From a virus: a stretch of DNA of 25,929 bases. Where the stretch lies: positions 1 to 25,929 of IMG/VR virus record IMGVR_UViG_3300031857_001210, one strand, 5' to 3'. A model generated the notes under the pieces. That model did no database searches and was not told the DNA's origin. It was given only the letters and a program-made list of their open reading frames with translations. This document shows, piece after piece, positions 36-23,101 of the stretch. The stretch's first letter is position 1. Every line of letters begins with the position of its first letter. A program made the position numbers and the translations under genes.

Positions 36-63
36 ATTAACTGACTATGCGGAATTGCTGTGT

Positions 64-124
64 CAGTGAAGATAGTGTAACACGGTAATTCACCTTGACA
101 ATACTTTTTTAAATTATTTTGTAG
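64..124 (-). promoter_or_regulatory. Promoter/operator module A
   Basis: The minus strand has a -35 TTGTCA (96-101), a 16-bp spacer and an extended -10 TGTTACACT (TACACT at 74-79). An A/T tract resembling an UP element lies upstream at about 102-120. The spacer and -10 form a 23-bp imperfect palindrome at 73-95, as expected of an operator whose occupancy would block RNA polymerase. It is the first of three related modules and would drive the gene leaving the window at its left edge. Confidence 0.7.
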
Positions 125-134
125 GGACAAACCC

Positions 135-386
135 TTAGTCGTTCATGTGCTGGGCAATCTCGCGCTCAATGCGTGACTCGTCCTTACTGGTCATCTTCTT
201 TGCCAGCCACGGTGCAGGACGGCCACGGCGGTCGCACACCACCCAGTCGCTCTCGCTGTAACCGTGGTAATCCCAGTCGCTGGCCGCGTTCTGGCAGTAG
301 GAACCAGCAACGCTGAAGTATTCAACGACACCGATCACGCAAGGGATGCCTGCGACGCGGGTTTCAATTTCTGCGATGAATGACAT
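135..386 (-). CDS. Hypothetical phage protein, 83 aa
   Basis: I do not recognise a named family. The product is a small soluble protein rich in aromatic residues in its middle (SDWDYHGYSESDW, about residues 40-52) with a charged C-terminal helix. The start at 386 is chosen because it follows AAGGAAATTACC, a good ribosome-binding site, and lies just past the stop of the upstream gene at 397; a longer reading from 410 would overlap that gene. It is the last gene of the unit begun by promoter B, and promoter module A lies just beyond its stop codon. Confidence 0.75.
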   Translation of the reverse strand: MSFIAEIETRVAGIPCVIGVVEYFSVAGSYCQNAASDWDYHGYSESDWVVCDRRGRPAPWLAKKMTSKDESRIEREIAQHMND

Positions 387-396
387 GGTAATTTCC

Positions 397-1206
397 TTAA
401 ACGGTTTCAAGAACTTTAGGGCGCTGGATAACGGTCTGCTTCACGCCGTTGTATACGGTGTGTTCTTTGATGCTGGCCTTGATGGTGTTGGTGTCACCCT
501 TGCCGCCGATGCTGGACTTGCCCTTGTAAGTAATGGCATTGCCTGCCTCGTCGCGGGCGATGGTGATGTAATTGTTGCCGTAGAACTCAGAATGTAAAAC
601 AATGATGCGCTCGACGGTGATGGTCAAGGTGACCTTGTCGCCCACCGCGCCGATGTGCTGGCTGTTGGCGCGTGCGGCCTCAAGGCGGTCGATCACCGCA
701 AAGCAGGACTCTACGGCCTCAACTTGGCGGGCGGATAAGTTGCCCCAGTAGGCAAGGTTGGCGATAGAACTGAGCAGGAAAGTATTTGCACCCTTGTAAG
801 CCTCTAAACGGGCCACCAAGGCGCTGTTGGCATCGCGCCATGCTTGACCAGCCTCAAGGCGTTCTGCGGCTCTCTGAGCGCGTTCTGCCTCAATCTGTGC
901 CTTGCGTGTCTCACGGCGCTTCTGGGCACCAGCCTGACGGCGTGCGCGTGTGTGTTCGGCGCGAACTTCCAAGAAGCGATCAATGCCCCAGCCAGTCTTG
1001 GCAACACAATCGCAACCCACCTTAAATTGCTTTGCGCCAGCAATGGAACCCTTGATCCAGAACTCCCAACGAATGCCTGTGCCGCAATAGTCGCAGACGC
1101 CGCCAGCCTTGGTCGTGCCATCGCCGTTATCCCAGACATTCTCGCTCACACCTGTGCATGAGAAGGGTGCCTTGCCGAGTCCTGCTTTTTCAAATGGGTG
1201 TGTCAT
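397..1206 (-). CDS. Zinc-ribbon protein with C-terminal OB-like domain
   Basis: This 269-aa protein has three visible parts. The N-terminus holds a Cys cluster (CDYC at 38-41 and CDC at 65-67) that would bind a metal. A basic, Arg/Ala/Glu-rich helical segment spans about residues 78-125. The C-terminal 75 residues begin with GDKVTLTITVERI and alternate strands ending in a VKQTVIQRPK motif, which resembles an OB-like domain common in phage and plasmid hypothetical proteins. A role in nucleic-acid binding is inferred from the zinc cluster plus the OB-like fold; no enzyme motif is seen. It is the first gene after promoter B, with AGGAG in its leader. Confidence 0.8.
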   Translation of the reverse strand: MTHPFEKAGLGKAPFSCTGVSENVWDNGDGTTKAGGVCDYCGTGIRWEFWIKGSIAGAKQFKVGCDCVAKTGWGIDRFLEVRAEHTRARRQAGAQKRRETRKAQIEAERAQRAAERLEAGQAWRDANSALVARLEAYKGANTFLLSSIANLAYWGNLSARQVEAVESCFAVIDRLEAARANSQHIGAVGDKVTLTITVERIIVLHSEFYGNNYITIARDEAGNAITYKGKSSIGGKGDTNTIKASIKEHTVYNGVKQTVIQRPKVLETV

Positions 1207-1208
1207 GT

Positions 1209-1225
1209 TTCGCTCCTGATTCGCT
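1209..1225 (-). promoter_or_regulatory. Twin AGCGAA leader boxes, copy B
   Basis: AGCGAA occurs on the minus strand at 1220-1225 and 1209-1214, 11 nt apart, just upstream of the ATG at 1206. In this copy an AGGAG Shine-Dalgarno sequence overlaps the second box. See copies at 19-35 and 2494-2510. Confidence 0.5.
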
Positions 1226-1250
1226 GTTACCTGCTTATTGCAGTGATTGG

Positions 1251-1302
1251 AAGTGTAACACGGTATTTCACTTGTGCAACACTTTTTTAATTTATTTTGT
1301 TG
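1251..1302 (-). promoter_or_regulatory. Promoter/operator module B
   Basis: The minus strand has -35 TTGCAC (1274-1279), a 16-bp spacer and an extended -10 TGTTACACT (TACACT at 1252-1257). The segment 1251-1273 is the best of the three palindromes: half-site AAGTGnAAnAC, a central base, then its exact complement, with mismatches only at the n positions. An A/T tract resembling an UP element covers about 1281-1300 and contains the stop codon of the upstream gene (1292-1294). The first gene downstream is the zinc-ribbon gene starting at 1206. Confidence 0.78.
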
Positions 1303-1474
1303 GTACTTTCCCCAAGTCGTATTTGCCCTGCATTTTGAGGCGGTCGATCAGGTCTCGAAGTAGGATGTTCTCGTCGCCATCATGCTCAAGAGCAAAACGC
1401 TCGATCTCCGCGACGATGTAGTCGCACCCGTGGTCAAAGCCTTTGATGTATTCGCTCATAGTGGTCTCGCTCAT
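1292..1474 (-). CDS. Small hypothetical protein, 60 aa
   Basis: The product is a 60-residue acidic, mostly helical protein (MSETTMSEYIKGF... to ...DLGKVPTK) with no recognised motif. The start at 1474 is chosen because its ATG overlaps the TGA of the upstream gene in an ATGA, the usual junction in this operon; a longer open frame to 1600 lies inside that gene and is not used. Its stop codon lies in the A/T tract of promoter module B. Confidence 0.7.
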   Translation of the reverse strand: MSETTMSEYIKGFDHGCDYIVAEIERFALEHDGDENILLRDLIDRLKMQGKYDLGKVPTK

Positions 1475-1911
1475 AATTCGTTCAATGCCAGAAAACCTTC
1501 TGGGGTTACAGACCACACCACCGCGTCTTTGCGCTGGTGCGTTTTCCTGCGGGTGCCGCTGTCCACCACAAACCCGCGATCCATCAAGGTCACGCGGCAT
1601 GGTCGATACGAGTTGCCCTCCATGCCCATCGTTTGCTGGGCCTCCTCATCTGTCAGGCCAAGAGGGTACGAACACAAATGCGCCAGCACCTTGCGCGTGA
1701 TGGTGCCGAACTTGGGCGCGATGGCCTCTGCGGCGGCTCTGGAGGTGTCGCTGTGCCATTGGTGCGGGGGTAGGTAGCCCTTACCCTTGCGACGGCCTAT
1801 ATCGGCCTCCAGCAAAGCAATGCAGGTGTTGATGGCATCGGCCACAAACATATCTTCGGTGCGAATTGATTTGAGTTCGGCCAGCACGCGGCCCATCGTG
1901 CGCTTGCTCAT
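1471..1911 (-). CDS. Phage winged-helix DNA-binding protein
   Basis: The 146-aa product has a pattern seen in many phage proteins annotated as winged helix-turn-helix: HSDTSRAAAEAIAPKFGTITRKVLAHL, then GLTDEEAQQTMGM, then a wing-like segment with YRPCRVTLMDRGFVVDSG and a final VVWSVTPEG strand. The first about 45 residues are a separate helical extension. It is probably a DNA-binding accessory or regulatory protein of replication; its target is unknown. It overlaps both neighbours by ATGA. Confidence 0.8.
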   Translation of the reverse strand: MSKRTMGRVLAELKSIRTEDMFVADAINTCIALLEADIGRRKGKGYLPPHQWHSDTSRAAAEAIAPKFGTITRKVLAHLCSYPLGLTDEEAQQTMGMEGNSYRPCRVTLMDRGFVVDSGTRRKTHQRKDAVVWSVTPEGFLALNEL

Positions 1912-2111
1912 GCGGCTTCCTCGATTGTGTCGGTCACTACAAACTCACCACGGTCGCCATTCCATGTGCAGTCTGGCAATGTGATCTTAAAAAACTTCAC
2001 AACTTCCATGACCTCGGCCTTGGTCTTTTTGTAGTCACACAGTGGTGAACCTTGGTTGATCAAAATCCAGCCGCGTTCGCTGTAACTCAAATAAATTTTA
2101 GGGTCGCTCAT
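1908..2111 (-). CDS. Small hypothetical protein, 67 aa
   Basis: No family is recognised. The protein is short and soluble with a predicted strand-turn start (IYLSYSERGWILI) and a hydrophobic helix around VMEVVKFF. The ATG at 2111 is preceded by an AAAGCGAATCGATT leader that carries the AGCGAA motif seen before other genes here. A strong GC hairpin lies between this gene and the one upstream, so its expression may be partly uncoupled from it. It ends in an ATGA overlap with the winged-helix gene. Confidence 0.7.
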   Translation of the reverse strand: MSDPKIYLSYSERGWILINQGSPLCDYKKTKAEVMEVVKFFKITLPDCTWNGDRGEFVVTDTIEEAA

Positions 2112-2137
2112 AATCGATTCGCTTTCGTTTTGGTTAA

Positions 2138-2151
2138 GCCCCCGAAGGGGC
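2138..2151 (-). terminator. Short GC hairpin with TTCG loop
   Basis: The minus strand reads GCCCC-TTCG-GGGGC, a five-pair all-GC stem closed by the very stable UUCG tetraloop. It lies between the stop at 2159 and the start at 2111. No U-run follows, so it is more likely a partial terminator, a processing or mRNA-stability element, than a full intrinsic terminator. Confidence 0.5.
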
Positions 2152-2158
2152 GGGTGGT

Positions 2159-2491
2159 TTACTTGCTGGTGACCTTTACGCTGAACACAGCGGAGGTATT
2201 TGTGTTTGACGCGACCAAGCCAGCAACAATTTTGTTGGCATCGATTTCTTTGTTTTGCTCTTGCAACAAAACAGTAAGAGCGGCCAAGATTTTTTTGTAG
2301 TCAACGCTTGAGCGGTTGCTCTCGATGTAGGTGGCTTTGAAGAGCGCACCCTCGACTACTTTGGCACCGCCTGCGCTGGCGCTATCCTTGATGCCGTCCT
2401 TAATTGCATCGGCTTGCTTGGTCAGATCGGCGATCTGTGCCAACAATGTGCCGAGTGTGTCTACTGATGTGAAGTTGATGTCGTTGTTCAT
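2159..2491 (-). CDS. Small helical phage protein, 110 aa
   Basis: The product begins with a helix (TSVDTLGTLLAQIADLTKQADAIKDGIKD) followed by a strand pair around VVEGALFKATYIESNRSSVDYKKI. This pattern recurs in many siphovirus and podovirus early-region hypothetical proteins; I know of no assigned function. It is the first gene behind promoter C, which suggests high or separately controlled expression. The ATG at 2491 is preceded by the twin AGCGAA leader. Confidence 0.75.
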   Translation of the reverse strand: MNNDINFTSVDTLGTLLAQIADLTKQADAIKDGIKDSASAGGAKVVEGALFKATYIESNRSSVDYKKILAALTVLLQEQNKEIDANKIVAGLVASNTNTSAVFSVKVTSK

Positions 2492-2493
2492 AA

Positions 2494-2510
2494 TTCGCTT
2501 TCTGTTCGCT
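2494..2510 (-). promoter_or_regulatory. Twin AGCGAA leader boxes, copy C
   Basis: AGCGAA occurs on the minus strand at 2505-2510 and 2494-2499, 11 nt apart, just before the ATG at 2491. No purine-rich Shine-Dalgarno of the GGAG type is present between the boxes and the start. The spacing matches copies A and B exactly. Confidence 0.5.
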
Positions 2511-2546
2511 GGTTCTGCCTTGCAACAATTGCTTGGTCAGTGAGGT

Positions 2547-2597
2547 AAGTGTAACACCATATTTCACCTGTGCAAGACTTTTTTAAATTATTTTCTA
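2547..2597 (-). promoter_or_regulatory. Promoter/operator module C
   Basis: The minus strand has -35 TTGCAC (2570-2575), a 16-bp spacer and extended -10 TGTTACACT (TACACT at 2548-2553). The palindromic operator copy is at 2547-2569, with some mismatches to the symmetric consensus. The upstream A/T tract runs into the stop codon of the Ref-like gene (2595-2597). It drives the gene starting at 2491. Confidence 0.75.
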
Positions 2598-6558: not shown

Positions 6559-7208
6559 ATCACCCTCCGCGCCGTTGCCTGCTGTTCGCCTGCATCATCT
6601 TCCCAGCGGCGCTGGTTGATGTAGGTCAATGGCGCAGGATCAAAGCCGCCAGTCCACTGCTCGGTTTTCTTCAGGCGCGTAACGCTGGCAATAATGGTGT
6701 CAGCCACCATGTCAAGGTTGTGCTTGTCCCACTTCTTCTCGCACTCGGCGCGGGCAACCTTTCTTTTTGACGAAGGCCACGCAGACCAAAAGTCGTTGAA
6801 TCGCGATGTTGTCGGTGTCACCGACGATATATTCTTATTCTGTATCTGTATCTGTTTAGGGTTAACCTTCGGTTTTGATTCGGTTATCGATTCGGTTTTC
6901 TTCGGCCTGCCGCCTCGCTTTCCGAGTTGTCGATTATTTTCAACTTGATGTTGATACTTCGCGATTTCCATGTCACAACGACTGTTGCGATACCCATCAA
7001 CACCCTTGTCAAAAAATTCCCCCAAAACCGATTCGGTTATGTCCAAGTCAAGGCGGATTTTGCGTGCAACCGATTCGGTTTCGAGTGGGATTGGCTTCTC
7101 GCTGATATAGTACAAATCAAGCAGGCGGCGGTATGCCAAGTCTTCGGCATCCGACAAGTGGTTGGTGTGTGTGATGTAGTCGCCCAAATAGAATTTGTAC
7201 CAGATCAC
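6555..7208 (-). CDS. DUF1376 replication protein
   Basis: The N-terminus (WYKFYLGDYITHTNHLSDAEDLAYRRLLDLYYISEKPIP) is the DUF1376 domain, found in phage replication regions. The middle is a hydrophilic linker. The C-terminal 70 residues (FNDFWSAWPSSKRKVARAECEKKW ... APLTYINQRRWEDD) resemble the end of lambda O/phage replication initiators that contact the helicase. A role in initiating replication or loading the helicase is inferred from domain and neighbours. The start is a GTG at 7208, giving a GTGA overlap with the upstream regulator gene. Confidence 0.82.
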   Translation of the reverse strand: MIWYKFYLGDYITHTNHLSDAEDLAYRRLLDLYYISEKPIPLETESVARKIRLDLDITESVLGEFFDKGVDGYRNSRCDMEIAKYQHQVENNRQLGKRGGRPKKTESITESKPKVNPKQIQIQNKNISSVTPTTSRFNDFWSAWPSSKRKVARAECEKKWDKHNLDMVADTIIASVTRLKKTEQWTGGFDPAPLTYINQRRWEDDAGEQQATARRVI

Positions 7209-7414
7209 TTGATGTCTCCAAAGATGTCAGGCCGTAATGTTGCACGCAACACCTTGCCCTTTGTGTATCGTTCAATGGCAACGCAAACCTCTGCGCTTGC
7301 CAGCCCTCGGCCCGTGATGAGTGCGGCCATCCACTGCTTAGTGATGCCTAAGTGTCGCGCCAACGCAATCTTCGCACCCCTTGGTTTATCTTCAAAAAAT
7401 TCCTCTAGCGTCAT
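7205..7414 (-). CDS. Cro/YdaS-like HTH regulator, 69 aa
   Basis: A helix-turn-helix is seen in AKIALARHLGITKQWMAALITGRGLASAEVCVAIERYTKGKV, close to the YdaS/Cro class of small phage regulators. The ATG at 7414 is chosen because it follows a GGAG at the right distance; an upstream in-frame start at 7453 would precede the likely transcription start. The gene is first in the leftward early operon and sits behind a promoter with an operator-like palindrome, so autoregulation and control of the promoter modules at 64-2597 are reasonable guesses. An antitoxin role, as proposed for YdaS, is also possible. Confidence 0.78.
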   Translation of the reverse strand: MTLEEFFEDKPRGAKIALARHLGITKQWMAALITGRGLASAEVCVAIERYTKGKVLRATLRPDIFGDIK

Positions 7415-7429
7415 CTCGACTCCATGTGT

Positions 7430-7452
7430 TAGTGAAACTTGATCATACACCA
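7430..7452 (-). promoter_or_regulatory. Degenerate fourth operator
   Basis: By hand alignment this 23-bp segment matches copy A of the promoter-module palindrome at about 16 of 23 positions, including the outer GGTG and CACTA arms. It overlaps the -10 of the leftward promoter at 7442-7447. The weaker match may mean lower affinity. A binding role is inferred. Confidence 0.35.
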
Positions 7453-7469
7453 AAAAAACAATTGTGCAA
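7442..7469 (-). promoter_or_regulatory. Leftward early promoter
   Basis: On the minus strand TTGCAC (7464-7469) and TATGAT (7442-7447) are separated by 16 bp, a good sigma70 promoter. Transcription would start near 7435 and enter the HTH regulator, DUF1376, primase-domain and helicase genes. The -35 element is only six bases from the -35 of the divergent rightward promoter. Confidence 0.7.
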
Positions 7470-7475
7470 GGGTTG

Positions 7476-7503
7476 TTGCAAAATAAGTTAATGTGTGTAT
7501 GAT
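7476..7503 (+). promoter_or_regulatory. Rightward early promoter
   Basis: TTGCAA (7476-7481), 16 bp, then TATGAT (7498-7503). The two divergent promoters have the same -10 and the same spacer length. It drives the plus-strand operon beginning at 7532. Confidence 0.7.
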
Positions 7504-7531
7504 ACCAACATCAACAGCGAAGGAGGAGTGT

Positions 7532-13957: not shown

Positions 13958-14881
13958 TTACCTCGCCATTTTTACTGAACCGCCGCGTGCCAAATAAACA
14001 CGGGCTTTTGAACGCTGGGCCTTCCCACCGTTTTTCATAATCACAGCGCCACCGTTCGCTTTCTTCATAAAAGCGCCAAGACCAGTCAACAGGCCAGCGA
14101 TTTGAGACAGTGGGCTGTTTGAGTATGCGCCAGCCTGTGGGCCAGTTTGTTGCTGTACAGAGCCGCCGGGGACTTGGTACTGCTTCAACAACTGAGAGAA
14201 CGCCTGCGCTTGCGCCATTGGATAGTCAAGCATCTTCTGGCCCAAAGCCTGTTGCTGACCGCCAAACTCACTCATGGCCTTGAGGCCACCAAGACCAAGT
14301 TGCTGTTGCTCTTGACCCAATTGGGTAAAGCCTTGACCAGCCTGCAAAGCACGAGTCAAGTCTTGCTGTGCAAACTTGCCAGCCTCTGTATATCCAGACT
14401 GAAGGGCTTGCATTTGCTTGCCCAACAGATCGGACTGGAGGTCACGCAAAGAGTTGCCAGTGACTTGCGCCTGACGACGCGATCCAAACTGACCAGAGCC
14501 AGCCGCCGCCGCGCCAAGGTTTGGCAAGATGTTTTCTTGAATGCTTCGCTGTTGCAGGCGACCCATCTCATCCACCACGCCACGGGTGTAGGGGTTCATG
14601 TAGTCAGCCACCACATCAGGCATGGTGGTTGCGCCAGCCTGACCCATCAATTGGGATGCCGCGCCCATCGAGCCAGCGCCAGCAAATGCCACATCAGGCA
14701 CCATCTGGAAGGCTTGCTGTTGCAGTGGGCTAAAGCCTGCCACACCGCCCTGCTGGACGGCGTTCTGACCAAGGTTGGCAATGTCTTGAAGGTAGTTTGT
14801 GTAGAACTCTGGCGCGGTCGCTTGCGTTTGCGTCGTCGTCGTTACATCTGGTAGGGGATCACCCTGAAACAGTCCAGCCAT
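13958..14881 (-). CDS. Gln-rich virion protein, 307 aa
   Basis: The protein has the layout of a recurrent environmental podovirus virion family: N-terminal TQTQATAPEFYTNYLQDIANLGQNA, then GVAGFSPLQQQAFQMV, PYTRGVVDEMGRLQQRSIQENILPNLGAAAAGSGQFGSRRQAQVTGNSL, a Gln/Leu-rich helical core and a basic C-terminus with FMKKANGGAVIMKNGG and ARGGSVKMAR. Likely an internal virion or tail-core protein (T7 gp14/15 position). Its ATG overlaps the stop of the upstream gene by one base (TAATG). Confidence 0.75.
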   Translation of the reverse strand: MAGLFQGDPLPDVTTTTQTQATAPEFYTNYLQDIANLGQNAVQQGGVAGFSPLQQQAFQMVPDVAFAGAGSMGAASQLMGQAGATTMPDVVADYMNPYTRGVVDEMGRLQQRSIQENILPNLGAAAAGSGQFGSRRQAQVTGNSLRDLQSDLLGKQMQALQSGYTEAGKFAQQDLTRALQAGQGFTQLGQEQQQLGLGGLKAMSEFGGQQQALGQKMLDYPMAQAQAFSQLLKQYQVPGGSVQQQTGPQAGAYSNSPLSQIAGLLTGLGAFMKKANGGAVIMKNGGKAQRSKARVYLARGGSVKMAR

Positions 14882-17800
14882 TATCTGGCTCCTTTCAAGT
14901 AGGAAGTAAGCGCCTTAGTCTTGGGCGGAATCTTATTCACGGGCGCAGACCGCTTGTGCGCCCTAATATTTTCCCTGAATTTATCCAAAGCCTGTGCGCC
15001 TGCTTTTGTAGAACCGTTGCCAATTTGGGCTACGGTCTCAGCGTCGATTACATACTCACCGTCAGCCAGCATCGCTGGGATGTCGTCGGATTGACCATCG
15101 CCGGGGCCATGCACTGACGCACCCTTGCGGAAGTTCAAGCGACCTTGGGTGATTGGCACATTTGAGAACGCAGGCAGGCCACCGCTCTTCATGCCTATGC
15201 CAGCAGGCGGCACGCCTTGGGGGATAGAGGGCTGTGTTGGAGCCATACCCATTTGGGGCAGTGCCTGCTGTGGAGGCACTTGCTGTGCGTTCTGAGCGGC
15301 CTGTGGAGGCATCTGAGGTTGCCCTTGTGGTTGCTGTGGCTGTTGCTGGAACGGCGCAGGGTTGCGCAGGTTCTGCAAGGGGTCAACAGGTGTGCCAAAG
15401 GTGTAGTAAGTCTGAGGCGCTGTCTGACCCAAACCGCCTTGAGGCATACCGCCCTCGGCCATACCTTCACCCATTTGGGTTTCGTACTCATCGTCCATCA
15501 GTTCGTCGTACTCTTCGCTTGGGCCAAACTCGGCCTCGTCGTAGCGTGCGTAGTCCCCGGGGTTCACCTCGTTGAAGCCGGGGGCGTTGAGGTTTTGATA
15601 CAACTCAGTGCCGTAGAGTTCGGGCATCTGCTCTGGCGTGCCATATTGGTCGTAGCCAACATAGTTTGCTGGGCCAATACCAAAGTCTGTCGTGCGTGGA
15701 TCGATTGCGCCAACGCCACCCATGTCAAAACCACCACCGCCTCCGCCTGTACCGCCACCGAACAGGTCAGTGTTGCCAAGCAGTGCGCCCAAAACAGCGC
15801 CTGCGGCTCCTGCGCCACCGTAAGTGTTCAGGCTTGCAAGCAAGTCAGCAATTGCGCTTTCGCTGGCCGCATTGGCTCTGTTTTCGGCAACCCTTTCTTG
15901 AATAGTTGGGTCGTTTGTGATGTCAGTTGCGCCAGTACCGCCCGCGCCCGTTACTTGCGTAGGGCCAGTCACGCGACCACCACCCAAAGGAATCACATTG
16001 CCTTGGGGGTCGTATACGCCAACAATGTTGCCAAAGCCATCGGTCACGATAGCGTTGCCTTCATCGTCGTATGTTGTATCGTATGCGTCAACAGTCCTAA
16101 AGACATTGCCGTCGGCGTCATAAACAATTTGTGAGCCGTCGTCAAATGTCTCAATACTAGAGCCGTCGTCAAAGTATTGAATGTTGCCTTGACCTGCTTG
16201 AGTCAAGCCGCCAGTTGTAACCGCTTCGCCATCTTGCGCAACCACCTCGCCGTTTGCATCAGTCACAAACACGATGTTGCTGTCCTCGTCAATAGTCACT
16301 GTGCTACCGTCGTCGTCCACATAGGTGGCTGTGCCGTCACCATTAGAAACAAATCCTTCGGGCCAGCCTTCTGGTGTGAAATCTAATCCTGTGCCTCGGC
16401 CCTCGTTGCTGTAAGTGTTGCCTACTGGGTTGCGGTTTCCAGTCAATGTGTAACCCGTCATGGTGGGGTCATCTGACTCACCAAAGTTATAGTCCACATT
16501 TTGGAAGTCTTGAACCTCTTCATCTGTGTCTGAATAATTGGGGTCACGCGCAGACAAACTGCGAGTTGCAAACGCAGGCGCAACTTCAAAATCGTCTGTT
16601 GCCTCGGTTACATCAACAACTTCGCCATCTGCGTCGTAAGTGATGGACGAGCCATCATCAAAGTATTGAGTGATTGTGCCGTCTTCGTTTTCCTCTTCCT
16701 CAACTGGCTCAATTTCTTCGTCCTCATAATCTTCGCCTTCCGCTTCGCCGCCCTCGGCCATTTTGAATAAGCCGCCTTTCTTCCCAAAATCCATGTCGTC
16801 GTAATATGAGTAGTCGTCTTCGTATGCGTAGTTGTCATCATAGGAATACTCGTCATCATACGAATACTCGTCATCAGCAGAATACTCATCTCCAGCCGTG
16901 TACTCATCATCAAAAGACTCGTCTCCAGCAAAAGTGCCGTCAGCGTATTGGTATATGTTGCCGCTTGAGTCATACAAATTGCCGTCATCATCAGTGAAGA
17001 AACTTCCTTCTGACTCCGCTACATCTTCATCACCAGCATAGGTTCCATCAGCGTACTGGTAAAGGTTACCGCTAGAGTCGTACAGGTTGCCATCGTCATC
17101 AGTAAAGAAGCCTTGGTCTGAATCTACTGTGTCTTCGTCACCAGCATAGGTGCCATCTGCGTATTGATAAATATTGCCGTTGGAATCGTACAGGTTGCCG
17201 TCATCATCAGTGAAGAATCCCTGTTCTGACTCTGTTGTATCCTCGTCACCAGTTACAAGCGTGTCTGACCCATCAATAACCTCGCCGTCACCGTCGTATG
17301 TAACGCCATCGGTGTCAGTGTAAGAAACAATGTCACCGTCTTCGTCGTATGTGATTACAGTGCCATCATCCAATGTTTCGGTTGTATTACCTCCAGCATC
17401 TAAATCTCCGCCGCCCTCGGTTATCTCATTACCGTCAGCGTCGTAAACAGAGCCGTCTGTGTCAGTGTAAGAAACAATGTCACCATTCTCATCAAGCGTA
17501 ACAACAGTGCCATCGTCTAACACTTGCGTAGTTGTGCCGTCGTCATCAGTGGTGGTGTCAAGATCATCGCCAGCATCACCAGTGTCGTCATCATCAGTGC
17601 CGTCTTTTTTTTCGTCCGCAAGAACAAGGTTTCCATCTTCATCAGTGCTATACAACTCTGAGCCATCTTCCATGCTGTAGGTTGTATTGCCAACGGTGTA
17701 TGTGCCATCGCCGTTATCAATAGCGCCTTCAGGCAATCCTAAAGATTCGTCAGCAAGCGTTCCCTCGTATGCCTTGTCAGCCGTAATTGTTGACGACCCT

Positions 17801-18996
17801 GCTACGCCTGTCTTAGTTGTACCAGTCTTGGCTGTCTTAGTTGCATCAGTTTTAGTTGCGCCAGTTTTAGTTGCGCCAGTTTTGGTCGCGCCTGTCTTAG
17901 TTGCACCAGTTTTGGTTGTGCCAGTCCCACCTTTTGGAACAAATGGAGGTGTTCCAACACCAGTTTTTGTGGTGCCAGTTGTGCCTGTTTTAGTTGTTCC
18001 AGTTCCTGTAGTTTTAGTTGTTCCCGTTTTTCCTGTTGTGTCAGCGCCCTTGATTACAGAGGTGACGCCAGTTCCTGTTTTCGTAGTCCCAGTGCCTGCT
18101 GTGCCTGTGGTCTTAGTAGTACCCGTTCCTGTTGTACCAGTTGTCTTTGTAGTTCCAGTGCCTGCCGTACCCGTAGTTTTTGTAGTTCCCGTTCCAGCAG
18201 TTCCTGTGGTTTTTGTGGTGCCCGTGCCTGCTGTTCCCGTGGTCTTTGTGGTTCCAGTTCCAGCAGTTCCAGTGCCCCTGACAGTTCCAGTTCCAGCGGT
18301 GCCAGTCCCAGCGGTTTTAGTTCCGCCAGTCAATTTGTCAATTACAAACTTGGTTCCAGCACCAAGAGCGGCACCAGTCAACGCATTTGTCAATGTGCTG
18401 GTCACACCTGAACCTGACTTTGTTCCGCCAGTTGTGCCAGTAGTTTTGCCTGTACCAGAACCCGTAGAGGTAAGAGTTTTTGACCCTGTTGCGCCAGTAG
18501 CACCAGTAGTCTTGCCAGTGCCAGTGCCAGTTGATGTCAAAGTCTTTGCGCCAGCGCCACCAGTAGTGCCAATGGTTCCAGTAGTCTTGCTGGTTAACCC
18601 GGGCAACTTTGAGGTTGTCCCAGCCGCAGTGGTTCCAGCAACTTTTCCAGCCGTAGCGCCAGTAGTCTTTCCAGCGCCCGTAGGGCCTTTTAGAGCGGAT
18701 GTAACAGCATTCTTAGGCTGACCTGCCATGTTGCCAAATTTATCGACTGTGCCCTTTCCTGCGCCTCCCATAGCGCCAGCACCGCCACGGCCACCACCCA
18801 TGCCACCACCCATTGGCAGATAACCTTCGGTGTCTCCCATTGGGCCGTAACCACTTGATCCAGCCAATTGGCGGATCGCTGAAGTGATTGGAGTCTCGCC
18901 ACGCAATGCGGCGGCACGGTCACCTGCACGGGTGTCTTGATACCTTTGAAACCGTGGCAATTGATTAACTGCTTTGCGTTTTTCTAAAATTGCCAT
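14881..18996 (-). CDS. Giant low-complexity virion protein, 1371 aa
   Basis: N-terminus (MAILEKRKAVNQLPRFQRYQ...) followed by a glycine-rich MGGGMGGGRGG segment. Residues about 100-405 are Thr/Gly/Lys/Ala-rich with seven 11-residue TGTAGTGTTKT units (231-307) and five GATKT units (364-388). Residues about 406-780 are strongly acidic, with DxDGN-type loops and three 36-residue repeats. A C-terminal Q/P-rich part ends in a conserved-looking block (HGPGDGQSDDIPAMLADGEYVIDAETVAQIGNGS...KFRENIRAHKR, from about 1295) that recurs at the ends of environmental phage structural proteins. The acidic loops may bind calcium. A role in the virion is inferred from the operon; a fibrous or DNA-ejection component is possible. 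Confidence 0.72.
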   Translation of the reverse strand: MAILEKRKAVNQLPRFQRYQDTRAGDRAAALRGETPITSAIRQLAGSSGYGPMGDTEGYLPMGGGMGGGRGGAGAMGGAGKGTVDKFGNMAGQPKNAVTSALKGPTGAGKTTGATAGKVAGTTAAGTTSKLPGLTSKTTGTIGTTGGAGAKTLTSTGTGTGKTTGATGATGSKTLTSTGSGTGKTTGTTGGTKSGSGVTSTLTNALTGAALGAGTKFVIDKLTGGTKTAGTGTAGTGTVRGTGTAGTGTTKTTGTAGTGTTKTTGTAGTGTTKTTGTAGTGTTKTTGTTGTGTTKTTGTAGTGTTKTGTGVTSVIKGADTTGKTGTTKTTGTGTTKTGTTGTTKTGVGTPPFVPKGGTGTTKTGATKTGATKTGATKTGATKTDATKTAKTGTTKTGVAGSSTITADKAYEGTLADESLGLPEGAIDNGDGTYTVGNTTYSMEDGSELYSTDEDGNLVLADEKKDGTDDDDTGDAGDDLDTTTDDDGTTTQVLDDGTVVTLDENGDIVSYTDTDGSVYDADGNEITEGGGDLDAGGNTTETLDDGTVITYDEDGDIVSYTDTDGVTYDGDGEVIDGSDTLVTGDEDTTESEQGFFTDDDGNLYDSNGNIYQYADGTYAGDEDTVDSDQGFFTDDDGNLYDSSGNLYQYADGTYAGDEDVAESEGSFFTDDDGNLYDSSGNIYQYADGTFAGDESFDDEYTAGDEYSADDEYSYDDEYSYDDNYAYEDDYSYYDDMDFGKKGGLFKMAEGGEAEGEDYEDEEIEPVEEEENEDGTITQYFDDGSSITYDADGEVVDVTEATDDFEVAPAFATRSLSARDPNYSDTDEEVQDFQNVDYNFGESDDPTMTGYTLTGNRNPVGNTYSNEGRGTGLDFTPEGWPEGFVSNGDGTATYVDDDGSTVTIDEDSNIVFVTDANGEVVAQDGEAVTTGGLTQAGQGNIQYFDDGSSIETFDDGSQIVYDADGNVFRTVDAYDTTYDDEGNAIVTDGFGNIVGVYDPQGNVIPLGGGRVTGPTQVTGAGGTGATDITNDPTIQERVAENRANAASESAIADLLASLNTYGGAGAAGAVLGALLGNTDLFGGGTGGGGGGFDMGGVGAIDPRTTDFGIGPANYVGYDQYGTPEQMPELYGTELYQNLNAPGFNEVNPGDYARYDEAEFGPSEEYDELMDDEYETQMGEGMAEGGMPQGGLGQTAPQTYYTFGTPVDPLQNLRNPAPFQQQPQQPQGQPQMPPQAAQNAQQVPPQQALPQMGMAPTQPSIPQGVPPAGIGMKSGGLPAFSNVPITQGRLNFRKGASVHGPGDGQSDDIPAMLADGEYVIDAETVAQIGNGSTKAGAQALDKFRENIRAHKRSAPVNKIPPKTKALTSYLKGAR
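16789..16926 (-). repeat. Acidic DDEYSY-type short repeats
   Basis: Residues 691-736 of the giant protein read as irregular 5-6-residue Asp/Glu/Tyr units (DDEY, GDEY, DDEYSY, DDNYAY, EDDYSY). They directly follow the 36-residue repeats and precede a KKGGLFKMAEGG segment, forming one of the most acidic parts of the protein. Confidence 0.75.
16927..17250 (-). repeat. Three 36-residue (108-bp) acidic repeats
   Basis: Residues 583-618, 619-654 and 655-690 are tandem copies of a unit with GDED, S/E-rich turn, FFTDDDGNLYDSxGNxYQYADGTxA. The DDDGNLYD loop resembles calcium-binding DxDGN loops (inference). The copies differ by several residues and by many synonymous bases, so they are old and maintained at the protein level. 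Confidence 0.85.
17833..17907 (-). repeat. Five GATKT pentapeptide repeats
   Basis: Residues 364-388 are GATKT four times then DATKT, a 15-bp tandem unit in the coding sequence. Each contributes one lysine at a fixed phase. Confidence 0.85.
18076..18306 (-). repeat. Seven TGTAGTGTTKT 11-residue repeats
   Basis: Residues 231-307 of the giant protein are seven units of an 11-residue pattern (the first ends VRG, the sixth has TGTT at its start). Codons in equivalent positions vary widely between units. One basic residue occurs per unit at the same phase. Confidence 0.85.
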
Positions 18997-19001
18997 GATG
19001 C

Positions 19002-21008
19002 TTATCCTTTACGATTAACTAAAGTTGACAGGCCAGATATTTTGGAGACTGGCGTCAACTTGCTCACATTCGCTTTGAGAGGAGCGGTTTTCTTTGTGGC
19101 CGAAACTGGAATCAGTTTTGATATAGCCATTGATTTAGGAACAACTTTGCTTCCAATTTGAGAGGCAACACCTTTAACCAACTGCTTACCAATTGACGGT
19201 GTCTTGGCAGTCTTAACGCCAAGTGCTTTATTGATACCGCTTCTGACGCCACCTTTGATTGCGCCAGTTACAGCCTTTGTCACTGCACCTTTTACAATGT
19301 TTCCAAGCACATCAGTTTTTGCACCAGTAGTGCTGGCTTGGTTCAAGCCGCCTGTTGTTGTGGCGTCTGCGGCAGAATCTACATTAAGGTTGGTATTGCC
19401 TGACTGGACTTGCGTTAACCCACCTACGGTGTCTGTTGCGCCAGTGGTGTCTGTTGCGCCAGTGGTTCCTGTTGTGTCAGCAACAATATCTGCGGCGCGA
19501 GTAATAACATCGTCACCTGTTGTATCTGCTACTACAGTTGCAACACCATCATCGTCAACAACAACCGTTTTGTCGCCTTGATCACCTGACACTGCGGTCA
19601 ATCCACTGATGACATCATCACCTGTGTCAATATCTGAGCCACCAGTCAATTGAGTGTTCAGCGTATTCAATCCGCCAATGGTGGTGTCTCCTGCTGTGTC
19701 ATCCGCCGTAGCAACTGTTGTGCCGAGAGTTGTGTCAAGCGTTGTATCAAGTGTTGTGTCAAGCCCTGTATCGCCAGATGTGCCTACAGTTGCGCCACCT
19801 GTATCGGTGTTGAGACTTGTAATGATGTCAGCAACGCTGTCTAAACCGCCAGAATCACCGACCAAGTTTGAGCCTGTTGTATCGCCGCTGTTTAAAACGG
19901 TTGATACAGTATCACCGCCGCCAGTGCTGGTGACATTGTCTGCGCCAAAAATCGTATCCGCAGTTGAACCCGTTGTCGATCCTGTAGTTGATCCTGTGCC
20001 TGAATCCGCAGTTGTAATGCCCTGACTGAGTACCCAATCCATTGTGGAGTCATCAAGGCCATAATGCGATTGAATTTGATCCGCAGTAAGACCAGAACTG
20101 GCAATGATTGCGTTGGTTGCGCCGTAATCACCACTGCCCCACGCCGCTGTAATTGCATCGTAGGGATTGGTGGACGCTGTAATTGTTGTTGCGCCTGTGT
20201 CACCAGTAAATGTGCTATCAACGCCTGTGTTGTCAACGCCTATATTGGAAACGGTAACTTGAGAAACGATGTCCGACGATACGCCAGCACCGTCGGTGTT
20301 TAAATCTACAGCGCCCGTTACCAACGATGTGCTACCCGCCCCAGATGTATCAACAGTATCAAAATTGGAAACGGTGGTAGTGAATGTGTCACCAACAGTT
20401 GTGTCTACGCTGGTTGTCGTTGATCCAGAGTCAAACCCAGCCACAAAGTCGGCGTTGGCTGTGGTGCCCACAGCATTTATTGCGTCTGTTGCTGTGCTGA
20501 TTACAGAATCAGAAACAATGTTGGTGAGTGTCGTAACGCCTGCATTAACCACTCCACCGACAAGACCGCCAGTGAAGCCATCAACAAAGTCGCCGCCTTT
20601 GATTTCCGCAACAGTTCCAGCAACAAGACCTTGACCGATAGATGTGCCAACAACATTAGAGATGGCCGCGTCAACTCCTGACTCAATCAGCGTTGACGAA
20701 ACTGAACCTGCAACTGGGCCAACAACTGAAGGCGCAAGATATGAAGTTCCAGCAGACAAAACGACATCCATGAGGTCGCCGCCACGAGCCGCAGTAACAA
20801 TTCCAGAGGTAACAAAAGGCGGAATGCCAACAGCCGCGCCAGCAATTTGCAAAAGCACTGGCAAAGGATCGTCAAGGACTGCTTGAACCGTGTCGCCAAC
20901 AAACTCAACAACATCACCGACGGCATCAACAACGCTTTCGACAACATCGCCGACTGCCTCAAAGACATCACCAACAACATCGCTTACAAATTCAACAACT
21001 GCTGACAT
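19002..21008 (-). CDS. Large Thr/Asp/Gly/Val-rich virion protein, 668 aa
   Basis: The N-terminal about 45 residues are a Val/Asp amphipathic repeat (VVGDVFEAVGDVVESVVDAVGDVVEFVGD), followed by LLQIAGAAVGIPPFVTSGIVTAARGGDLMDVVLSAGTSYLAPSVVG, a Gly/Ala segment that may insert in or cross a membrane. The middle is low-complexity and Thr/Asp/Gly/Ser-rich with TTGSTTGST, LDTTLDTTLDTT and GATDTTGATD runs. The C-terminus (residues about 590-668) is basic, with GAVTKAVTGAIKGGVRSGINKALG and LVNRKG. A structural or ejected role is inferred from the operon. GGGAG precedes the ATG. Confidence 0.7.
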   Translation of the reverse strand: MSAVVEFVSDVVGDVFEAVGDVVESVVDAVGDVVEFVGDTVQAVLDDPLPVLLQIAGAAVGIPPFVTSGIVTAARGGDLMDVVLSAGTSYLAPSVVGPVAGSVSSTLIESGVDAAISNVVGTSIGQGLVAGTVAEIKGGDFVDGFTGGLVGGVVNAGVTTLTNIVSDSVISTATDAINAVGTTANADFVAGFDSGSTTTSVDTTVGDTFTTTVSNFDTVDTSGAGSTSLVTGAVDLNTDGAGVSSDIVSQVTVSNIGVDNTGVDSTFTGDTGATTITASTNPYDAITAAWGSGDYGATNAIIASSGLTADQIQSHYGLDDSTMDWVLSQGITTADSGTGSTTGSTTGSTADTIFGADNVTSTGGGDTVSTVLNSGDTTGSNLVGDSGGLDSVADIITSLNTDTGGATVGTSGDTGLDTTLDTTLDTTLGTTVATADDTAGDTTIGGLNTLNTQLTGGSDIDTGDDVISGLTAVSGDQGDKTVVVDDDGVATVVADTTGDDVITRAADIVADTTGTTGATDTTGATDTVGGLTQVQSGNTNLNVDSAADATTTGGLNQASTTGAKTDVLGNIVKGAVTKAVTGAIKGGVRSGINKALGVKTAKTPSIGKQLVKGVASQIGSKVVPKSMAISKLIPVSATKKTAPLKANVSKLTPVSKISGLSTLVNRKG

Positions 21009-21454: not shown

Positions 21455-22563
21455 CACAGCCCCTTAAATATTGCGGCGGAATAGATGTTGCCCATCCCAG
21501 CCGCCAGACTCATTATTAAACCATCAGGGGGACTTGTCGATTCCGAAAGGAATACCGAATCGTTTTCAGTTCGGTTCTCAATCGCTGGCACAAATCCTGA
21601 CTTGATGTCGCCCAATAACAATAAAGTTTCAAGCAGTCCACTGCTTCCCATCGTATGACCAATTTTCTGCTTATACGAAGTTGCAATGAACCCTTGGAGC
21701 GTTTGGTTCAAGGCATTCTTTTCAGCCTTGTTGTTGGACGCTGTTCCAGTTCCGTGGGTCTTGACAATTTTAATCTGATCTGGCCTTGTTTGGGAATAGT
21801 GCAATACACCCTCTATGGCCCTGATGAAGCCCTCACCATCCTCACACTGCCCAATCGCGTTTGTAGAGCGTTCTGACGCGTTGTAGGCCCCTACAAGGCG
21901 GGCATGGGGTTTGATCTGTTGTTGGTTGACCGCGTCGCGAGACTCAAACACCGCAAAAGCGGCTCCCTGCCCAACCCTAAATCCACCGTTAACCGAATCA
22001 AAAGCGGATGGCTTTATGCCCTCCTGCTCTTGTTTTTCAGTTAATACAGCCTTGGAGTCACCAAAGAACTCCAGCACGGCGTTGGATACACCGTCCTCCA
22101 CCGTCAACACAATCACGCGGTTAAAACCGTAGAACTGGATAAGATTTTGCACATCCATCATTACCTTGAGGCTGGAGGCGCAGGCAGAGGAGTCGGTGGT
22201 GACCATGTCCATATCACCGCACGACTGGGCAATACGGCCAGCGTAGACTTGCGTCAGGGTGAACGGCAGGAACTTGTAGGTGTAGGTCAGGCGCGAGTCG
22301 TAAGGGCGCTGGCCGATGCCAGCAAAGTGGGCGTTGCCTGCGGCCAAGATGAATGCCGTCTTGCCTACAGGGTTTTCCCTTAGATAAGTCAGCAACTCAG
22401 GGTCAAGGACTTTTTCGGCCAGTTTGTGCGGCACATAGACCAAGCCAGACTTGACTCGGTTGTAGGTCTCAGGAAACCAGTTGACCTTCTGGGGGTAGAT
22501 GATGTCGTCGAACAACTCGACATTGGTCGTGGAGGCCGTGCGGTAGTGCGTCAAATAGATCAT
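21454..22563 (-). CDS. Beta-ketoacyl-ACP synthase (KAS I/II, FabB/FabF-type)
   Basis: This 369-aa protein belongs to the condensing enzymes that join an acyl group to malonyl-ACP. The active-site Cys is in DSSACASSL (C128); the two histidines are in THGTGTASNN (H270) and KQKIGHTMGSSG (H303), with K298 five residues before H303, all as in FabF. The protein is shorter than FabF (about 410 aa), mainly at the N-terminus, which lacks the VxxTGxGxxSPxG opening. The C-terminal gating loop reads AAGMGNIYSAAIF instead of SFGFGGTN. No KR, DH or ER partner is in the window. The start at 22563 overlaps the ACP stop by ATGA. It presumably uses the ACP encoded just upstream, and host malonyl-ACP. Confidence 0.9.
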   Translation of the reverse strand: MIYLTHYRTASTTNVELFDDIIYPQKVNWFPETYNRVKSGLVYVPHKLAEKVLDPELLTYLRENPVGKTAFILAAGNAHFAGIGQRPYDSRLTYTYKFLPFTLTQVYAGRIAQSCGDMDMVTTDSSACASSLKVMMDVQNLIQFYGFNRVIVLTVEDGVSNAVLEFFGDSKAVLTEKQEQEGIKPSAFDSVNGGFRVGQGAAFAVFESRDAVNQQQIKPHARLVGAYNASERSTNAIGQCEDGEGFIRAIEGVLHYSQTRPDQIKIVKTHGTGTASNNKAEKNALNQTLQGFIATSYKQKIGHTMGSSGLLETLLLLGDIKSGFVPAIENRTENDSVFLSESTSPPDGLIMSLAAGMGNIYSAAIFKGL

Positions 22564-22844
22564 TTGCACGCCTCCACAACTTCTTCCATAGAGGCAGGCT
22601 CTTTGGTTTTGTTTGCCATGACAAGGTCGTGCAACTCCTGCACAGATGTCGGTGCCCACTCTTTGCTGACTGCGTCGTCGATTCCATAAAGGTCATCGAA
22701 ATACATCAACATCACCAAACCATCAAGACTGTCTAATCCAATGTCTTGGAAGGCGTCGGCCATTGAATCTGCAATGGCAACTTTGGCGTGAGCAGGTCGG
22801 GCGACCTTTGCCACATGGTTAAAAATGTCGATGAACTCTATCAT
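22560..22844 (-). CDS. Acyl carrier protein
   Basis: The 94-aa product has the ACP/PP-binding pattern: MIEFIDIFNHVAKVARPAHAKVAIADSMADAFQDIGLDSLDGLVMLMYFDDLYGI. The serine of DSL (S39) is the site for 4'-phosphopantetheine attachment by a host AcpS/Sfp-type transferase, since none is visible here. The four-helix layout with acidic helices fits ACP; the C-terminal tail (TKEPASMEEVVEACK) is slightly longer than AcpP. It lies between a small tail-associated gene and the ketosynthase gene, with ATGA overlaps on both sides. An in-frame upstream ATG at 22898 lies inside the previous gene and is not used. Confidence 0.9.
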   Translation of the reverse strand: MIEFIDIFNHVAKVARPAHAKVAIADSMADAFQDIGLDSLDGLVMLMYFDDLYGIDDAVSKEWAPTSVQELHDLVMANKTKEPASMEEVVEACK

Positions 22845-23101
22845 TGATCTGGGCCTTCTGTGGGCTGGTTGACAGCGCCAACCAAAGCCGCCGCCCAATC
22901 CTGCCAGTTGTTGTAGATATAGGGGCCGGGGATACCCTCATTCGTAAACACATCAATTGCCTTCAACCCAGCCGCCCACTGCTTCCAATCTGTTTGAGGC
23001 GTAGGAATCGATAACTGCTGACCCGCATACGCCTCGCACATTAGCGATGCCCACGACTCAAAGGTGTGAAACCGAGGATCGTAGACAACAGCCAGTGCCA
23101 T
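22841..23101 (-). CDS. Small tail-region protein, 86 aa
   Basis: A Trp-rich compact protein (FESWASLMCEAY, TDWKQWAAGLKAIDVFTNEGIPGPYIYNNWQDWAAALVGAVN) whose pattern I associate with environmental podovirus tail-region hypotheticals, next to the tail hub gene. No motif shows an enzymatic role. It starts one base past the stop of the hub gene and ends in an ATGA with the ACP gene. Probably structural. Confidence 0.75.
   Translation of the reverse strand: MALAVVYDPRFHTFESWASLMCEAYAGQQLSIPTPQTDWKQWAAGLKAIDVFTNEGIPGPYIYNNWQDWAAALVGAVNQPTEGPDQ

Follow-up and report, generated by a model that had tools for sequence, protein, structure and literature searches.

A 19-bp operator that probably places the early promoters of an uncultured lake phage under its own YdaS/Cro-like protein

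What controls a promoter that recurs three times in the sequence of an uncultured phage? The question is raised by IMG/VR record IMGVR_UViG_3300031857_001210, which derives from a lake, is classed as linear and was analyzed as a whole (25,929 bp; hereafter, the window). A first-pass annotation had described three promoters, at 73-95, 1251-1273 and 2547-2569, in which a 23-bp near-palindrome with half-site AAGTGnAAnAC fills the space between -35 and -10, and had reasoned from their "exact duplication" that one phage repressor controls three early units. The reading that we favor, with a probability of about 85%, is that sigma-70-type early promoters are overlaid by a shorter operator of 19 bp, and would be shut down by the phage's own YdaS/Cro-like protein.

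The three copies are indeed found at those positions: with up to 3 mismatches allowed, the 23-bp pattern has exactly 3 matches in the window, against 0.01 expected from shuffles. The 16-bp spacer, the extended -10, the upstream A/T tract and a related leader are likewise present at every copy, and the -10 is TGTTACACT in all three. The strand had escaped the annotation: all three cassettes lie on the minus strand, oriented toward minus-strand genes, and share the general form TTGNNN-16-TACACT, with an extended -10 and a short leader before the ATG that follows. The copies are, however, similar rather than identical (64% and 82% identity to copy 1 over 73 nt), and duplication by itself is no evidence for a common repressor. 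Promoter calls, here and below, are sequence-based. The promoters and the genes behind them, with lengths in amino acids (aa), are as follows:

74..101, minus strand: predicted early promoter 1, TTGTCA-16-TACACT with extended -10, feeding a gene that starts at about 18 and is cut by the record end
1252..1279, minus strand: predicted early promoter 2, TTGCAC-16-TACACT, preceding the 269-aa gene
2548..2575, minus strand: predicted early promoter 3, TTGCAC-16-TACACT, preceding the 110-aa gene
397..1206, minus strand: 269-aa gene behind promoter 2, whose orthologues served to compare operator and gene
2159..2491, minus strand: 110-aa gene behind promoter 3, whose orthologues served the same comparison

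The palindrome is real, but its full half-site AAGTGnAAnAC is nearly matched at the 1251 copy only. What is conserved among relatives is a shorter dyad of 19 bp, GTGWAA-N7-TTWCAC, that lies inside the 23-bp palindrome and had been missed as such. Sequence conservation thus points to the inner 19 bp, and not the 23-bp palindrome, as the probable operator. Its copies at the three promoters are:

75..93, minus strand: operator 1, GTGTAA-cacggta-ATTCAC as read on the plus strand, 11/12 of the dyad (from the window sequence)
1253..1271, minus strand: operator 2, GTGAAA-taccgtg-TTACAC as read on the minus strand, 12/12 (from the dyad scan)
2549..2567, minus strand: operator 3, GTGAAA-tatggtg-TTACAC as read on the minus strand, 12/12 (from the dyad scan)

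Relatives carrying the same promoter were gathered by an IMG/VR pattern scan, which yielded 34 other stretches, and by protein searches, which yielded 80 loci each. The dyad was counted in a set of 133 non-redundant loci (1.49 Mb), and copies per record in 16 whole records of up to 58 kb, whose completeness is not certified. A wider dyad, GT[GT][TA]AA-N7-TT[AT][AC]AC (that is, GTKWAA-N7-TTWMAC), gave 160 matches in the 133 loci, while spacers of 3-6 or 8-11 instead of 7 gave 0 or 1 match each. The dyad is present in 14 of the 16 whole records and the reversed control in 0; the strict form occurs in one to four copies per record.

The annotation would have been weakened had no further copies existed. 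A further copy was found at 7432-7450, beyond the range that it had reported, at the promoter of a gene for a small helix-turn-helix (HTH) protein. This fourth and presumably autoregulatory site had also been missed. The elements around it are:

7205..7414, minus strand: the proposed repressor, a YdaS/Cro-like HTH protein of 69 aa (ATG at 7414; the listed open reading frame, ORF, starts at an upstream TTG)
7442..7469, minus strand: predicted promoter of the HTH gene and the replication operon, TTGCAC-16-TATGAT (read by eye)
7432..7450, minus strand: operator at the HTH gene's promoter, GTGTAT-gatcaag-TTTCAC, 11/12, covering the -10 and the predicted start
7487..7505, minus strand: candidate operator of the divergent rightward promoter, weak at 9/12

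The HTH gene is the first of a leftward replication operon and is followed by DUF1376, then by a DnaB-like helicase and RusA; no HTH match was noted for the divergent gene at 7493. Its product matches the YdaS family PF15943 with 57.6 bits, against a cut-off of 30, and each of the 16 whole records encodes one PF15943 protein above cut-off. A profile built from its relatives retrieves the YdaS protein of CP-933P (PDB 8co2, 8c7k) with a full-length match at 2.4e-14. An AlphaFold model (pLDDT 92) places the HTH helices at residues 14-22 and 26-34, the latter being the recognition helix, and resembles the five-helix YdaS/Cro fold (TM 0.87 with 8co2, 0.69 with 3bd1). Sequence match and model together argue that the 69-aa protein belongs to the YdaS/Cro family. 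Upstream of the HTH gene, 63 of 72 relatives have a dyad of at least 11/12 at spacer 7. Spacer 6 gave 27 matches in these regions, which are sites of one class (class B, below) read one base shifted. The operator in the divergent promoter is strong (11/12) at the equivalent place in many class B relatives.

In relatives, half-site and recognition helix change together. Further half-sites came from relatives fetched with divergent HTH proteins. An open search for any dyad common to HTH upstream regions and other upstream regions was noisy, with spacers 3 and 5 scoring as high as 7; its spacer-7 matches gave the further half-sites, which were then tested with controls. Classes were defined by HTH residues 25-31, and the counts are distinct sites at spacer 7:

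class A: helix TKQW, half-site GTGAAA, 30 sites
class B: helix SKTW(F/M/L)S, half-site GTTTAA, 87 sites
class C: helix SRTWLA, half-site TTGTAA, 15 sites
class D: helix SLTW, half-site YYTTAA, 56 sites
class E: helix T(Q/P)TWLG, half-site NTCTAA, 31 sites
class F: helix xEWMSK, half-site YTTGAA, 8 sites
class G: helix SRTWMS, half-site ATKTAA, 4 sites

The matrix of helix class against half-site is nearly diagonal, with seven pairings and only 3 off-diagonal sites between named classes. The unassigned HTH group has at most 7 sites per half-site, and six control spacers give an average of less than 1 for each cell. The central seven bases of the operator are variable, class B showing greater variation than class A. 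In most classes 0.96-1.00 of the sites have an ATG ORF starting no more than 90 bp downstream, compared with 0.62-0.72 of random positions.

Because the half-sites had been read from the same loci, three checks for circularity were added. In a held-out test, matrices trained solely on sites away from the HTH gene were applied to HTH upstream regions, and 91 of 112 were classed correctly (A 18/18, B 30/37, C 5/5, D 19/27, E 7/12, F 7/7, G 5/6). When all 5,040 labelings were compared, the true one alone reached 91/112; none of the 5,039 others did as well. Orthologous promoters gave a second check: in unambiguous cases the operator class was that of the resident HTH protein, in 19/19 promoters of the 269-aa gene and in 46/46 of the 110-aa gene. 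The nearest relative of the 269-aa protein belongs to another class in 13 of 27 cases, and the protein is about 90% identical among the window (class A), locus L047 (class B) and locus L212 (class D). Since orthologous promoters match the resident HTH protein across classes, the operator tracks the HTH gene and not the gene that it controls. Lastly, the table was fixed and applied to contigs fetched later. Class E was right in 13/14 (31 sites) and class F in 2/2, with one stray match; overall, 15/16 were right. Contig L309, binned with Limnohabitans, has helix SKTWMS and two GTTTAA-N7-TTACAC cassettes, as class B predicts.

These data bear on two simpler explanations. One is that the window merely has ordinary duplicated sigma-70 promoters, in which a conserved -10 and a copied spacer happen to produce the palindrome. 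In its favor, conservation is strong at both the extended -10 and the -35, and copies that are nearly identical hint at a recent duplication. Nevertheless, the half-sites stay exactly 7 bp apart through changes in the central bases and in promoter layout; both half-sites change jointly, as in GTTTAA-N7-TTAAAC; and the dyad appears again at the HTH gene, where its placement with respect to the -10 is different. We therefore regard this explanation as very improbable. A by-product of the -10 was the idea favored at first, as most class A copies have GGTGAAAT, which breaks the outer half-site of the annotation; it was overturned because the dyad is specific to spacer 7. Simple duplication was rejected in view of the match of orthologous promoters to the resident HTH protein and of the comparison of downstream genes. 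The other explanation is that a host regulator, rather than a phage protein, binds the dyad. Phage promoters can be regulated by host factors; however, seven half-site types pair here with seven phage HTH helix types and switch together between close relatives, and a host factor would need to switch in step. The chance that a host regulator is responsible seems slight.

Upstream of the 269-aa gene, two further promoter layouts were seen among relatives. In L061/L121 and L018/L060 there is a class A promoter with TTGCAA and -10 TATACT, in which GTTAAT-gttatac-TTTCAC has a class A half-site and spacer 7 and is shifted to a new place with respect to the -10. In L043, L047, L068 and L072, a -35 TTGAC lies inside the loop of a G5/C5 hairpin that is followed by TTTGTTT. 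The latter layout is common in class B relatives, as if the terminator of the previous unit overlapped the next promoter.

The mechanism that we propose is as follows. The 69-aa protein, the sole YdaS/Cro-like protein of the phage, would bind the operators as a dimer, and a bound operator would cover the spacer and the -10, thus excluding RNA polymerase. The same protein would bind the operator over its own -10 and start site. Its gene stands at the front of the early replication operon; the protein would therefore build up early, and may then shut off its own operon and the other early units, in a Cro-like logic. Each messenger would begin with a conserved hairpin (described below), followed by an AGCGAA-type region. 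The proposal that one phage repressor controls the three early units is thus upheld by sequence, with predicted autorepression added. It draws on spacing specificity, on the dyad at the HTH promoter, and on covariation in seven classes together with the held-out, orthologous and later-contig tests.

Several points weigh against this interpretation. Positions, spacing specificity, covariation of helix and half-site and the compensatory changes in the hairpin can be read directly from the sequences, whereas binding, dimerization, repression, transcription starts and timing are what we infer from them; repression rather than activation is judged from the overlap of operator and -10. Operator 1 has one mismatch, and the operator in the divergent promoter is weak, and doubtful, in the window. 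The same loci first supplied both classes and half-sites, and tests on other loci came only afterwards. About ten HTH types are without an assigned operator; among them, no half-site could be assigned to SDVW, TQTWMT and several single types. Helix classes partly track phage lineages, and the independent switches are therefore few (about six). As a separate observation, the region upstream of the HTH gene in L245, of the SDVW type, resembles the 3' half of a tRNA, while ARAGORN finds no tRNA gene there.

The main rival explanation involves the same protein and the same sites. It holds that the HTH protein is an immunity-type repressor, which silences all early promoters and so maintains a dormant or carrier state. 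Single-repressor immunity also uses one repressor and operators at several early promoters, as in the stoperators of Cluster A mycobacteriophages (PMC6550527), and the completeness of the records is not certified. On the other hand, no tyrosine integrase (PF00589), serine recombinase (PF00239) or S24-type CI repressor was found in the 16 records, which may be incomplete; other CI types were not searched for. Moreover, the HTH gene comes first in the replication operon and is predicted to be autorepressed, and the closest relative of its product with a solved structure is a Cro analogue. We consider an immunity role unlikely. As neither integrase nor S24-type CI was found in the 16 records, stand-alone, Cro-type early shut-off is the most likely function, and, with no serine recombinase found either, a lysogeny switch is not supported.

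That closest relative, YdaS of the cryptic prophage CP-933P of E. coli O157:H7, has been shown to bind promoters; it was footprinted over two promoters with 18-bp palindromes of half-site GTTTAGTAA, and was argued to be a Cro analogue rather than a component of a toxin-antitoxin pair, despite the Pfam name YdaS_toxin (PMC8630535). Beyond the shared fold and full-length profile match, GTTTAGTAA starts like the class B half-site GTTTAA. The systems differ in other respects. CP-933P YdaS acts with the CI analogue PaaR2 and with YdaT in a lambdoid immunity region, whereas no CI-type partner was found in the window lineage; its operators occupy one intergenic region and one further promoter, instead of scattered promoter cassettes; and the half-sites of the window phage are 7 bp apart in a 19-bp site, unlike the 18-bp palindromes.

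Lambda-type Cro offers a parallel as a small HTH repressor with a dyad operator over early promoters and with autorepression, which is predicted here. Work from the Cordes laboratory reportedly found that Cro recognition helix and operator half-site covary. Lambda operators, however, cluster at two control regions common to CI, while the window phage has a single operator per early unit and no CI was seen.

Two mycobacteriophage systems are partial parallels that differ in kind. Cluster A stoperators (PMC6550527) also combine one repressor with genome-spread sites whose motif changes with the repressor, but they are asymmetric 13-bp elements, up to about 30 per genome and mostly away from promoters, whereas the window lineage has its few 19-bp dyads at promoters. 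The SAS/ESAS elements of Cluster K (PMC3203893) likewise form a recurrent module, in which an inverted repeat immediately precedes early-gene start codons; their sequence is different, and in the window lineage the hairpin follows the promoter-operator and shows compensatory changes.

Through the analysis, a repeat spotted by eye becomes a regulon whose regulator is named and whose sites are exact, in phages that have been seen in metagenomes only. Seven helix/half-site pairs constitute a natural data set on how a small HTH repressor shifts its specificity with several operators following, a problem of long standing in regulator evolution; as site and DNA-reading helix change together across many related phages, they also make a natural table of protein-DNA recognition. 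If these phages really lack a CI-type repressor, Cro-like shut-off would be operating without a lysogeny switch. We lean, with some reserve, toward the broader view that an abundant uncultured freshwater lineage has a stand-alone Cro without CI, that its specificity changed about six times with the operators following, and that residues 25-31 and the first four half-site bases form a natural code. Examples would be E27 and K31 with G at base 4, and Q27 with A at base 4.

A hairpin that the annotation had missed follows each promoter, near the predicted start:

41..66, minus strand: leader hairpin of unit 1, CTGAC...GTCAG (from the leader alignment)
1231..1243, minus strand: leader hairpin of unit 2, CTGC-AATAA-GCAG (from leader folding)
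2515..2540, minus strand: leader hairpin of unit 3, CTGACC...GGCAG (from leader folding)

In an alignment of 17 leaders with a 7-pair structure, every cell is paired. Changes on both sides affect 13 cells, a number reached by 0 of 500 shuffles, and pairing falls to 17-31% when the partner is slid by 1-3 columns. The compensatory changes occur in 3 of the 7 pairs, the others being invariant, and it is they that argue for the hairpin; its folding energy is not unusual (mean z about -0.8 and -1.0). Messenger decay can be slowed by a stem at the 5' end, and this one may have that effect in these phages. The AGCGAA-type region recurs in the leader before the start codon.

Another inverted repeat, TAGGG-N(4-8)-CCTA, lies upstream of 63-73% of class A and B operators, whereas random positions have it in about 1% of cases. 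In the window it occupies 122-135, and in relatives the equivalent places, at the 3' end of the preceding gene; it falls in different reading frames and lacks a U tract. There is no excess of the repeat in the window alone, and its link to the cassettes is visible in relatives only.

Among phage records no cultured close relative was found: the best helicase match is about 35% identical, and the best match of the 269-aa protein about 30%. The closest genome-derived relative was binned with Limnohabitans; the text of a report on Limnohabitans phages (PMC12195039) offers no link to the window phage.

Elsewhere in the window, two minus-strand genes, 14881-18996 (1371 aa, no Pfam match) and 19002-21008 (668 aa), encode largely Thr/Gly- and Asp/Gly-rich repeats. 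A beta-ketoacyl synthase-like gene (PF02801, PF00109; 21454-22659, minus strand) lies among structural genes and is unusual phage cargo. The small ORF that adjoins it (22560-22898, minus strand) has no Pfam match and looks, by eye, acyl carrier protein-like.

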